NCBI RefSeq assembly: GCF_900115785.1
Contig: NZ_FOYS01000003.1
Location: 186,001 to 250,000, forward strand
Direction: 5' to 3'
From: Halogeometricum limi
GTDB lineage: Archaea; Halobacteriota; Halobacteria; Halobacteriales; Haloferacaceae
DNA: 64,000 nt
The translations under genes were made by a program, and so were the position numbers. How positions within the stretch are numbered: position 1 is the first letter of the stretch; every line of letters begins with the position of its first letter. Positions 33,795 to 37,505 of the stretch are shown piece by piece. The notes below the pieces were generated by a model. That model was not told the origin of the DNA, made no database searches, and saw only the letters and a list, made by a program, of their open reading frames with translations.

Positions 33795-34421
33795 TCACTC
33801 GCGCGTGACCCCGACGCGGCCGTCCGCCACGTCGAGTTCGAATCCGGCGTCGACCAGCCAGTCTCTCGCCGCGCCCGTCCCGTGCAAGAGTACTTCCGCG
33901 AGGTCCGACGGTTCGTCCACGTCCGTCGACAGTCGCATCGAGTCGACGTCCGTCACCGAGAGGTCGGCGGCGGCGGCGAGTCGGCGGTGGTCGCGGTAGG
34001 ACGCCCCGTGGTAGTCGACGCGGAAGTCGGGGTGGCGAACGACGAGGGCGTTCGTCCCGCCGCCGCGGCCGGGAGCGACGACGACGTCGCCCTCGCTCTC
34101 GAACAGTCGGGAGAGCGCGTCGGGCGTCGCGAGCGCCAGGTCGGCCATCACGACGGCCACCGACTCCGTCTCGGCGTGCGTTTCGAGTACCGCGTTCACC
34201 GCCGGCGTGAGCGGTCTGTCGTCGACGACGGCGGGCGCGTCCGCCCCGTCGGCGTCCGACTCGTCGGCCGTCAACAGCGTCGGCGTCTCGCCCGCCGCGC
34301 GGACGGCGTCGAGGACGTCGTCGCGCATCGCCCGCGCGAACGCGCGACGCTCCGCGAGCGAGAGCACGTCGGCGAGACGGCTCTTCGGGTCGCGCGTCGT
34401 GTACGGGACGACCACCTGCAT
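33795..34421 (-). CDS. cofC: 2-phospho-L-lactate guanylyltransferase
   Basis: CofC activates 2-phospho-L-lactate (or phosphoenolpyruvate) with GTP, giving the side-chain donor for F420. The 208-aa protein has the nucleotidyltransferase pattern 'VVPYTTRDPKSRLADVLSLAERRAFARAMRDDVL', 'VAVVMADLALATPDALSRL', 'VVVAPGRGGGTNALVVRHP' and 'MRLSTDVDEPSDLAEVL'. It lies 21 bp downstream of the CetZ-associated gene and upstream of cofG, all on one strand. Confidence 0.94.
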   Translation of the reverse strand: MQVVVPYTTRDPKSRLADVLSLAERRAFARAMRDDVLDAVRAAGETPTLLTADESDADGADAPAVVDDRPLTPAVNAVLETHAETESVAVVMADLALATPDALSRLFESEGDVVVAPGRGGGTNALVVRHPDFRVDYHGASYRDHRRLAAAADLSVTDVDSMRLSTDVDEPSDLAEVLLHGTGAARDWLVDAGFELDVADGRVGVTRE

Positions 34422-34442: not shown

Positions 34443-35228
34443 TTAGCCGAGTTTGTCGTAGCTGCTCTGTTGGGACCGCCAGTAGACGATTCCACCGACC
34501 ACGACGGCGACGACGACGAGGCCGCCGACGGCGTAGATGAGCAGTTGTTGGGTCTGGCTCGACTGCTGCGCCTGTTGCGCTTCGGTCTGCGCCTGGTTCG
34601 CCAGTTCGGTGGCGAGTTCGAAGTTACCGTTCTCGAACGCGCTGACCGCGTTGTCGAACGTCTGCTGCGCTTGGTCGGACCCGCTGCTTCCGACGACGGC
34701 CTGCGCGTCGTCGAGTGCGGTCCGCGCACCCTGGCTCTCCTCGGTGAAGTGGTGCGCCGTCCACGTCTGGATGTCGTTCGAGGAGCCACCCTGTCGCGTC
34801 TGCTGGAGGCTCATCGCCTCGAACGCCTGCGCGGGGTCGTAGGTGAACGCGTCCACGCCCGGTGCGGTACCGGCGACGCGCACTTCGACTTCGCTCGTCC
34901 CGTCGTCGGCGGCTATCTCAGCGCCGCTGAAGTTCTGGCCGTCGAACGACTGCTGGTTTATCTTCGCACCGGTCTGGTCGTAGTAGGTGACGGTCCACGT
35001 CACGTCCTCTAGCTCGGTCGTTCCGGCGAGCGTCCACGACTCTAACTGCGGGTTCTTGTACAGTTCCGTCAGCGTCACCGTCGCGGTGATCTTCGAGTCG
35101 GCCTGCGCGTCGCTGGGCACGTCCTCCTCGGCGACCGAAATCGCGGCCACGGGGGCCGCGAACGCCGAGAGGCAGACGAGACAGGCGAGCGCCAGCTTAG
35201 AAAAGCGACTCCAACTCGTCTTCGTCAT
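34443..35228 (-). CDS. Exported, C-terminally membrane-anchored protein overlapping cetZ
   Basis: A 261-aa protein of unknown function. Residues 1-29 form a signal peptide (basic start MTKTSWSRFSK, hydrophobic core, cleavage near APVAA). Residues about 30-150 look beta-rich ('TATVTLTELYKNPQLESWTLAG'). A Gln/Ala-rich, probably helical or coiled region spans about 170-228. One membrane helix lies at about 229-249, then a short cytoplasmic tail (WRSQQSSYDKLG). The start codon lies inside cetZ: the genes overlap by 32 nt in different frames, so translation is probably coupled. A signal peptide starting exactly at this ATG supports the start. It may connect CetZ-dependent shape control with the envelope (inference). 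Confidence 0.82.
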   Translation of the reverse strand: MTKTSWSRFSKLALACLVCLSAFAAPVAAISVAEEDVPSDAQADSKITATVTLTELYKNPQLESWTLAGTTELEDVTWTVTYYDQTGAKINQQSFDGQNFSGAEIAADDGTSEVEVRVAGTAPGVDAFTYDPAQAFEAMSLQQTRQGGSSNDIQTWTAHHFTEESQGARTALDDAQAVVGSSGSDQAQQTFDNAVSAFENGNFELATELANQAQTEAQQAQQSSQTQQLLIYAVGGLVVVAVVVGGIVYWRSQQSSYDKLG

Positions 35229-36378
35229 CGTTGACTAGGTTCTCCAAGTTTTGGTCGCTCTCTTGCCGAATCTCGTCGATGTTCTCCTGCGCCTCGATGG
35301 CCACCTGCTGGAGCTCTTTGATGCGGGGCACGTTCGTGACCCCGGAGAGCAGGATGACCGACGCGACTTTTCCGGAGTTCCGGATGGGGTAGTCCCCACC
35401 GCGAACCTCCATGCTGCCGGTCTGCTCTTCGATCCACTTCCGCCCGCGCTCTATGCCTTTCCGGTTCAGATGCTCCGGCGGTCCGGCCATCACGAGTAGT
35501 GCACGTTCGGTCCCTTCTACCTCACACGGGAGCGTGAGACGGCCGAGTGCGGCCTTGCGGACCAAGGACGTGATGCGGTTGGTCGTGTGTGCGGTGTCTA
35601 TCTGGTCGTCCTCGCTCCCGCCCGTAATGCGCGAGAGGAGGCCGCTGCCCGAGTTCTTCTCCTCGACGGTCTCGGAGGCGTATCCGACCGTGGAGACGCC
35701 GCCGCCGGCGAGCGTGTTGATTATCTCGGAGGAGTCGACGACGCTCTCTGCGACCTCGCCCCCTTGCTCGACTTCTCCTGCCCCGAACAGGACGCCGAAG
35801 CGGGTGACGATCTCTTCGTTGATCTCGTCGTACCCTCCTTGCACCGACTCGCCGGTCTTTCGCCAGGAGTCGTTGTCGAACACCATGAGGTTGTCAACCT
35901 CGCGGACGAACGTCTGGAACGACCGCGCGGCGTTGAGCGTGTAGATTCCACCCTCGTCACCGCCCGGCAAGACGCCGAGTCCGTAGACTGGCTCTGTGTA
36001 GATTCGTTTCAAGTGTTTCGCTAATACGGGCGCGCCACCGCTTCCGGTGCCGCCACCGAGTCCCGAGACGACGAGGAACGCGTCCACTTCGTGGACGGGG
36101 ATGCTGTCGACAGCACCCTGCACCTCGTCGATGTCTTCTTCGGCGATTTCGGCTCCGAGTTCGTTGTCGGCACCGACTCCGTGACCTTTCACACGCGACT
36201 GCCCGATCAGGACGCGCTTGTCCTGTGGGATGTGTTCGAGGCCCATCAAGTCGGCCTTCGCTGAGTTGACCGCGACGGCGGCGCGGACGATGCCCGAACC
36301 GTGTCGCTGGTCGTACTCGACGAATTTGTCGACGATCTTTCCCCCGGCCTGCCCGAATCCGATCATTGCGAGTTTCAT
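35197..36378 (-). CDS. cetZ: Tubulin-like protein CetZ
   Basis: CetZ proteins are GTP-binding cytoskeletal proteins of the FtsZ/tubulin superfamily that control haloarchaeal cell shape and motility. The 393-aa protein has the nucleotide loop GQAGG (9-13), the tubulin signature GGGTGSG (108-114) and the T7-like 'NEEIVTRFGVLFGAGEVEQGG' region. The length matches CetZ1, and from memory the neighbourhood (cetZ followed by cofC and cofG) is like that of Haloferax cetZ1, but paralogue assignment is not proven. The long AT-rich upstream region (36379-36605) probably carries its promoter. Confidence 0.95.
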   Translation of the reverse strand: MKLAMIGFGQAGGKIVDKFVEYDQRHGSGIVRAAVAVNSAKADLMGLEHIPQDKRVLIGQSRVKGHGVGADNELGAEIAEEDIDEVQGAVDSIPVHEVDAFLVVSGLGGGTGSGGAPVLAKHLKRIYTEPVYGLGVLPGGDEGGIYTLNAARSFQTFVREVDNLMVFDNDSWRKTGESVQGGYDEINEEIVTRFGVLFGAGEVEQGGEVAESVVDSSEIINTLAGGGVSTVGYASETVEEKNSGSGLLSRITGGSEDDQIDTAHTTNRITSLVRKAALGRLTLPCEVEGTERALLVMAGPPEHLNRKGIERGRKWIEEQTGSMEVRGGDYPIRNSGKVASVILLSGVTNVPRIKELQQVAIEAQENIDEIRQESDQNLENLVNDDEDELESLF

Positions 36379-36605
36379 CGTTTCTCCGGTCCCCTCGCCA
36401 TTGCGTGTAAGCCAACACGAACGCAGACATAAACTTTGTGATGGGGAACTATCTCGAAAATGATACAATAATTTCGTCAATCGCAAGACAGCGTCGACCC
36501 ATTAATCCATCATTATACGCTTTCGAGTATTTCACGAAACGGTGACTGTCAACTAACTCTGTATATTTTGGTGGTCTTAACGCCGAAAATTGGGCGGCTT
36601 CGTCG

Positions 36606-37505
36606 TCAGTTTCGGTCGTGCGCGTCGCGGAGGTAGGCACGCAACGTGGTGAGTTCACCAGTGCCGTAGCCGAACGCGCCGATGGCGTTGTCGTCGGTGA
36701 CGTTGTCGAACTTGAGCGAGCGGTACTGGTCCGTTCCCATCGGGAACCCGGGGATGGCCCCGCCGATGGTGAGTCCGACCTTCGCCAGTCCCATCGGAAC
36801 GGGAACGACGGTGGTCGAACGGCCGTCCGACTCGTGGATCAGCTTGGCGATCTCCGCGAGGGTGAGTTTGTCGGGGCCGCCTATCTCGTACGTCTGGCCG
36901 ACGTGTTTCTCGTCCTCTACGGCGTCGGCCATCATCCGGGCGACGTCCGTCACGTGGATGGGCTGAAAGCGCGTCTTGCCGCCGCCGGGGAGTGCGCTGA
37001 CGTACGGCGGGGCGAGGAGTTTCGTAAAGGAGACGAACTCGCCGCCGTCGCCGAAGATGACGGAGGGGCGGAAGATGGTCCAGTCGAGGACCGACTCCGT
37101 AACGATCTCCTCGGCGCGGCCCTTCGCCCGGATGTACGCGGTCGGTCCGTCCGGGTCGGCACCGAGCGCGCTCATCTGGACGAACCGGTCGACGTCGTTT
37201 TTCTCGGCCGCGCGGACGACGTTCTCGGTTCCCTGTCGGTGTATCTTGTCGTGCATCTCCTTGCCGCCGCTCGGTTTGAACAACGGCGAGAGCGCGACGA
37301 GGTTGTAGACGGCGTCCATCCCGTCGAACGCGTCTTTGATGGAGTCGTAGGCGGTGACGTTGCCCATCACCTTGTTGACGCCCTTCGGGAGGTCGTCGCT
37401 GTTCGGACTCCGGGACATCGCGGTCACCTCGTGACCCCGTTGTTTCAGTTCGCGGCACAGGTTCGTTCCGACGAAGCCGCTGCCGCCGACCACGAGAACT
37501 TTCAT
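36606..37505 (-). CDS. NDUFA9-like NAD(P)-binding atypical SDR protein
   Basis: A 299-aa protein with the dinucleotide-binding motif '[30 protein letters not shown]' at the start and '[23 protein letters not shown]', '[12 protein letters not shown]' and '[11 protein letters not shown]' as in atypical short-chain dehydrogenases related to complex I NDUFA9. Such proteins often bind NADPH without a full catalytic triad. Divergent from tmk. Confidence 0.88.

Follow-up and report, generated by a model that had tools for sequence, protein, structure and literature searches.

A family of type I membrane proteins encoded next to cetZ is a candidate link between the CetZ skeleton and the cell envelope

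The gene that overlaps cetZ1 by 32 nt in Halogeometricum limi encodes a type I membrane protein (hereafter the partner), and a gene of the same type was found directly downstream of cetZ in most of the CetZ-encoding genomes sampled outside the haloarchaea. Haloarchaeal CetZ1 determines rod shape and the placement of the motility machinery (e.g. PMC11621097), and a literature search found nothing on a membrane anchor or an envelope link of CetZ. The partner family, which is the best candidate yet for a link from the CetZ skeleton to the envelope, is undescribed; neither the protein encoded here nor distant members matched a Pfam or NCBIfam model above the curated cut-off. If the proposed role is true, a tubulin relative and the protein cell wall would be joined across the membrane. 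A five-residue conserved cytoplasmic motif makes the question of a CetZ1 envelope link simply testable.

The window is the whole stretch of 64,000 nucleotides that was analysed (positions 186,001 to 250,000 of contig NZ_FOYS01000003.1), and the features of the locus are collected in Table 1. The upstream gene was assigned to cetZ1 by the domains of its product (CetZ_C, 3.6e-83; Tubulin, 9.8e-31; Pfam) and by its neighbours sdr, cofC, and cofG. The gene order sdr-cetZ1-partner-cofC-cofG was kept across haloarchaeal families, and cofC adjoined cetZ1 directly in most genomes without the partner gene. A promoter-like element, CGAAATTATT, is located upstream of cetZ1, and no BRE/TATA-like element was found ahead of the overlapping start of the partner gene.

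Table 1. Features of the cetZ1-partner locus (positions in the window)
Feature	Position	Strand	Basis and remarks
SDR epimerase-like gene (sdr)	36606..37505	minus	upstream of cetZ1, conserved there
BRE/TATA-like promoter of cetZ1 (CGAAATTATTGTATC)	36462..36476	minus	haloarchaeal consensus CGAAA/TTWT from PMC4983044
cetZ1	35197..36378	minus	ATG 36378, stop ending 35197; 393 aa; tubulin/CetZ family; C-terminus ...NDDEDELESLF
CetZ Asp codon GAT, gives AT of partner ATG	35227..35229	minus	GAC or GAG where partner absent
cetZ1/partner overlap, 32 nt, different frames	35197..35228	minus	ORFs; kept in 48/49 family loci; annotated in NZ_CP100463
Partner, CetZ-linked type I membrane protein	34443..35228	minus	ORF, ATG 35228, stop ending 34443; 261 aa
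Signal-peptide-like N-terminus, residues 1-29	35142..35228	minus	hydropathy and cross-locus comparison
Extracytoplasmic beta-sandwich, residues 31-161	34746..35138	minus	AF2
Alpha-hairpin, residues 163-225, continuous with TM helix	34554..34742	minus	AF2
C-terminal transmembrane (TM) helix, residues 226-252	34473..34553	minus	hydropathy, AF2 helix
Cytoplasmic tail QQSSYDKLG, nine residues	34446..34472	minus	alignments; conserved end YDKLG = 34446-34460
cofC	33795..34421	minus	next gene after partner; TIGR03552 5.4e-52

The initial annotation had described a 261-residue protein, exported and membrane-anchored with a short cytoplasmic tail, whose frame opens within cetZ1 32 nt before its stop. 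The overlapping start was confirmed from positions 35197-35228, and the topology was supported by hydropathy, an AF2 model, and alignments. The ORF, the model, and the family alignments gave the domain order signal peptide, beta-domain, alpha-hairpin, TM helix, and short tail. The N-terminus, MTKTSWSRFSKLALACLVCLSAFAAPVAA, resembles a signal peptide; the codons of its basic n-region specify, in the frame of cetZ1, the acidic CetZ tail. Hydropathy detected a single TM segment beyond the signal peptide. The AF2 model, built from 37 sequences, had a mean pLDDT of 82 with disordered ends and placed helices at residues 163-182, 185-199, and 203-254, the last of which includes the TM segment. A Foldseek search with this model returned nothing but generic beta-sandwiches (Spo0M, arrestin N-lobe, RhoGDI, and C3; best TM-score ~0.3 normalised to the query), so that no named fold was assigned, and a PDB search for sequence relatives gave no significant match. 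Several known identities were considered and rejected. The sequence preceding the TM helix, QSSQTQQLLIYAVGG, lacks the PGF of archaeosortase (PGF-CTERM) substrates; a lipoprotein is not indicated, since the signal-region Cys is not conserved and the processing site is like A-x-A; a SepF-type FtsZ anchor does not fit a protein with a signal peptide, an extracytoplasmic beta-domain, a C-terminal TM helix, and no Pfam SepF match; and RodZ does not fit ~9 residues inside and no helix-turn-helix (HTH) match. No paper was found under HVO_2203, the presumed locus tag of the Haloferax volcanii orthologue.

A phylum-wide profile search with the haloarchaeal partner gave weak matches outside the class. 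Protein homology alone led to eight loci outside the haloarchaea; in all eight the partner was directly behind CetZ, with CetZ proteins 50-58% identical and the two genes overlapping by 4 or 1 nt or separated by short gaps; none of the window's other genes was found at these loci. To avoid selection bias, the non-haloarchaeal genomes of the phylum were sampled at every fourth entry (75 genomes, 52 with CetZ), and the gene behind CetZ was scored for a signal peptide, an ectodomain, a C-terminal TM helix, and a short tail. Such a gene was directly downstream of cetZ in 45 of the 52 CetZ genomes (counted by hand), against a background of 8/216 ORFs with this architecture. A profile of the outside members detected the partner anywhere in the genome in 51/52 genomes with CetZ but in only 2/23 without (Fisher p=2.6e-15, with genomes counted as independent and phylogeny ignored). 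In one of the two CetZ-less exceptions (G490) the contig ends exactly where CetZ would lie, and in the other (G462) the partner tail is different. The partners of the four genomes in which the gene is unlinked still end in F/W-D-E-L-K/R. The CetZ paralogues (L282, L283, L299) and the CetZ-like genes of ~30% identity that were examined have no such neighbour. A second cetZ-partner pair was found on a plasmid of Salinigranum marinum (NZ_CP100463.1:42260-44222; L150/L318), where the 32-nt overlap is retained among unrelated neighbours, away from the cof/sdr block; cetZ and partner of this pair were not placed identically in trees. The cetZ-partner pair persists where all other neighbours differ. 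A mirror-tree correlation (r=0.57) gave no evidence beyond shared ancestry and was set aside. The functional link to CetZ proposed in the initial annotation gains support from this pairing and co-occurrence, from the plasmid-borne pair, and from the conserved tail described below.

Judged by their sequences, the haloarchaeal and outside partners are one family. Signal peptide, TM segment, and tail were removed before comparison. The haloarchaeal ectodomain profile then detected 41/69 outside proteins at E<1e-3 and 0/345 shuffled sequences, and hhalign aligned haloarchaeal with outside ectodomains over 187-196 columns at 99% probability (E 2e-18 and 6.5e-17). By hydropathy, a signal peptide and one C-terminal TM helix were present in 117/120 haloarchaeal and 65/69 outside members (background 8/216), and most outside members shared 17-35% identity with the sequence that heads their alignment. 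The beta-domain of the outside members (profile positions about 1-160) also matched other, often large ORFs of methanogen-like genomes, which are putative surface proteins.

The C-terminal motif [W/Y]D[E/K]L(x) was present, under a strict definition, in 75/120 haloarchaeal and 49/69 outside members, and after redundancy removal in 29/58 and 33/47, respectively. The window partner, with the tail peptide YWRSQQSSYDKLG, ends in YDKLG and hence conforms to [W/Y]D[E/K]LG; WDELG versions occur in other families. Among the 356 open frames of the window, this ending was found only in the partner gene. A genome-wide search of 14 genomes returned the partner alone in four neighbour-positive haloarchaea and in G539, and no match in six genomes without the partner gene; the remaining matches were the partner in two more genomes and three non-gene-like frames. 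The outside members are basic between the TM helix and the motif, carrying about four K/R among their last 14 residues. The tail was altered in the genus group without cetZ1 (g46, e.g. SWRDR) and in the one whose CetZ1 lacks its own conserved end (g42). Since tail variants also occur beside normal CetZ1 (e.g. NTNRLR, PSQKLR; one outside family uses KRGIY), this covariation of tail and CetZ1 is suggestive only.

The overlap is not due to chance, and the start of the partner is kept under selection. Among 49 distinct neighbour-positive loci of the window's taxonomic family, 48 had the partner start exactly at -32 and the remaining one at -29. The Asp codon of CetZ that contributes to the partner ATG was GAT in the same proportion (48/49, the exception having GAT/ATG one codon later), whereas in the 20 loci without partner it was GAC in 19 and GAG in one. 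Since these 49 and 20 loci were picked by protein homology, the count of GAT versus GAC is not circular; a separate GAT count among the -32 starters was circular and was discarded. The minimum free energy (MFE) of RNA folding was compared between 33 partner-positive and 27 negative representatives. It was -7.2 versus -14.5 kcal/mol for the region from -25 to +25 of the start (p=8.5e-9) and -3.0 versus -9.1 kcal/mol for that from -15 to +15 (p about 1e-8), and the frequency of A/T at third positions across the cetZ body was not higher in the partner-positive representatives. Other haloarchaeal partners use this reading frame too, with starts at -32, -29, -26, or -23, or, beside a divergent CetZ1, at -11. 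On the Salinigranum plasmid, the 32-nt overlap is part of the RefSeq annotation as well. For annotators, the start at the 32-nt overlap is real. Because the CetZ tail of partner-less loci is already T/S/R-rich in the other frame (e.g. TTRTSSSRCS), the overlap looks as if one synonymous change had recruited a pre-existing basic signal-peptide start. It would be a haloarchaeal detail, in which replacing GAC by GAT yields the ATG and the local mRNA is kept unfolded.

The length of the overlap had been taken to argue for coupled synthesis, and this part of the initial annotation is not supported. In H. volcanii, termination-reinitiation is attributed to gene distances of about -8 to +10 nt, with longer overlaps being rare (PMC10666635), and is nearly gone at a distance of about 20 nt (Huber et al. 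2023, PMC10666635); in E. coli coupling is lost at -25 (cited in the review PMC12548453). Since -32 is outside this range, the 32-nt overlap is no argument for coupled synthesis. Moreover, cetZ and partner outside haloarchaea mostly lie +2 to +23 nt apart or overlap by 1-4 nt, and a long overlap is thus no feature of the partnership. The partner start is also unfolded by itself. It is therefore very unlikely that termination-reinitiation synchronises cetZ1 and partner as two subunits of one complex, even though complex subunits are over-represented among the short-overlap genes of H. volcanii (PMC10666635) and a few outside pairs overlap by -4 or -1 nt. The coupled pairs of H. volcanii (PMC6728339, PMC10666635) are likewise unidirectional overlapping genes, possibly encoding partners, but they typically overlap by 4 or 1 nt rather than by 32 nt. 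Less probable again is transcription of the partner as a leaderless mRNA from its own promoter within cetZ1. In H. volcanii leaderless transcripts predominate and 1153 internal transcription start sites are known (PMC4983044), and third-position A/T was raised at one position, -26. However, TTWT was present in the TATA window of 0/33 representatives and CGAAA in only one, and the low folding energy was centred on the start codon itself; an internal promoter was thus rejected. A better reading of the conserved overlap is that of an internal start, accessible on its own, which selection would keep open.

In the haloarchaeal class, a profile search detected the partner in 202 of 394 genomes and CetZ1 in 353 (E<=1e-185); in the window's taxonomic family the numbers were 87 and 164 of 171. 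Comparison of the lists by hand showed that 186 genomes have both genes and that 167/353 CetZ1 genomes (47%) have no partner. Losses of the partner were seen in a large Halorubrum-like genus group, in most of a Natrialbaceae-like family (f4), in the family f9, and in some genera of f3, and CetZ1 retains its own conserved tail in partner-less haloarchaea. By the initial annotation, frequent absence or unlinking of the neighbour where cetZ1 is kept would speak against a common function. This objection applies in part: about 47% of the haloarchaeal CetZ1 genomes, in a few clades, have no partner. The partner is dispensable, since several clades retain CetZ1 alone, which is not to say that it is unrelated to CetZ1.

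The remaining 16 of the 202 partner genomes are eleven of the genus group g42, one genome with a broken cetZ1 and the partner present (G087), Haloquadratum walsbyi J07HQW2 (G100), and three of the genus group g46. The eleven g42 genomes have a divergent CetZ1, which was adjacent to the partner in both loci checked (L134 and L180). In H. walsbyi J07HQW2 the interval from sdr to cofC lacks cetZ1, and the partner is a start-less remnant (L152, L107, L190). CetZ was not detected at E<=1e-110 in the two g46 genomes searched out of three. At the g46 loci (L193, L194, L195) and in a metagenome-assembled genome (L123), cetZ1 is absent and the partner is right after sdr with its own start; these genomes are a natural test of a CetZ-independent function of the partner. 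At the g42 loci (L134, L180, L189, L191), the divergent CetZ1 (62-63% where measured, L134 and L180) has no DELxxLF end, and the partner starts at -11 with tails ending in PSRLR or PSRLQ. In Halogranum amylolyticum (L045, L122) the partner is split by a frame change or stops, through decay or sequencing error. An apparent CetZ-partner fusion in Haloquadratum J07HQX50 (L102) is an artefact, because its single open frame crosses a stretch of N. An ORF between cetZ1 and cofC at another locus (L173) was rejected as a member since its sequence looks like a GNAT acetyltransferase.

The partner, whose association with CetZ is observed, is probably a membrane receptor or anchor that would couple CetZ filaments to the envelope via its tail. 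The overlapping gene would then be the haloarchaeal member of an ancient type I membrane family working with CetZ. Its product would be exported with the beta-domain and the alpha-hairpin outside, cross the membrane once, and leave a very short tail inside, which is basic next to the membrane and usually ends in [W/Y]D[E/K]LG. Most likely, CetZ itself or a factor bound to it is where this tail docks; the two outer domains may contact the S-layer or another surface partner. As an anchor or receptor, the protein would couple CetZ filaments to the envelope, probably to the S-layer, and we infer an effect on shape or motility. The wider reading appears to us evenly balanced: that a membrane receptor dedicated to CetZ predates the separation of the haloarchaea from other CetZ lineages of the phylum, with [W/Y]D[E/K]LG as the CetZ-docking peptide of a transmembrane linker from cytoskeleton to envelope. 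Such an ancient receptor would have been lost several times in haloarchaea.

The main rival to this linker is that the protein works outside, in S-layer binding, surface assembly, or sensing, as an envelope client in the process that CetZ serves. CetZ would then place or regulate it indirectly, and the tail would serve topology, stability, or another partner. The bulk of the protein is extracytoplasmic, a few lineages without cetZ1 retain it, and other genes of methanogen-like genomes contain a related beta-domain, all of which would suit such a role. On the other hand, the ectodomain is far more divergent across the phylum than the last five residues, and the tail is retained in members whose genes are unlinked to cetZ; we thus consider the client role unlikely, although it deserves more weight than the other alternatives. 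The least probable explanation is that the gene is merely co-transcribed, carried along in a conserved operon with no functional tie to CetZ. The whole block sdr-cetZ1-partner-cofC-cofG is indeed kept in haloarchaea, but outside them only the cetZ-partner pair is conserved, the plasmid carries a second pair without the block, and the presence of the partner tracks CetZ even when the two are unlinked.

The linker proposed here has its nearest functional analogues in RodZ-MreB and the FtsZ anchors, which share neither homology nor a common layout with it. RodZ, the membrane partner of bacterial MreB, binds by a large cytoplasmic helix-turn-helix domain. Like RodZ, the CetZ partner has a single span and an extracytoplasmic beta-domain and may join an internal filament to the envelope; unlike RodZ, it has only a short tail inside and a type I topology with a signal peptide, and no sequence relation between the two was found. 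Integrin-type receptors, cited here as an analogy only, likewise have an extracellular domain, one span, and a short conserved tail meeting the cytoskeleton; they are not homologous to the CetZ partner, for which the binding partner of the tail is putative. SepF, ZipA, and FtsA also anchor a polymer of the tubulin superfamily to the membrane, as proposed for the CetZ partner, but their polymer is FtsZ, on which they act from within the cytoplasm (archaeal SepF: PMC8178401, PMC8187382), whereas the protein described here pairs with CetZ and is mainly extracytoplasmic.

Neighbourhoods of cetZ have been surveyed before on the basis of arCOGs, in the haloarchaeal class and further orders (Brown and Duggin 2023, PMC9856176). 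The conserved epimerase and F420 genes around cetZ1 described in that paper agree with the surroundings found here, and few similarities were noted among the cetZ regions of Archaeoglobales, Methanomicrobiales, and Methanosarcinales. Its main text names no downstream membrane partner; the supplementary tables may list the gene. Across the phylum (L205-L281), CetZ proteins themselves have a short C-terminal end (PLF, PLFE, or DELxxLF), with the partner adjacent or not.
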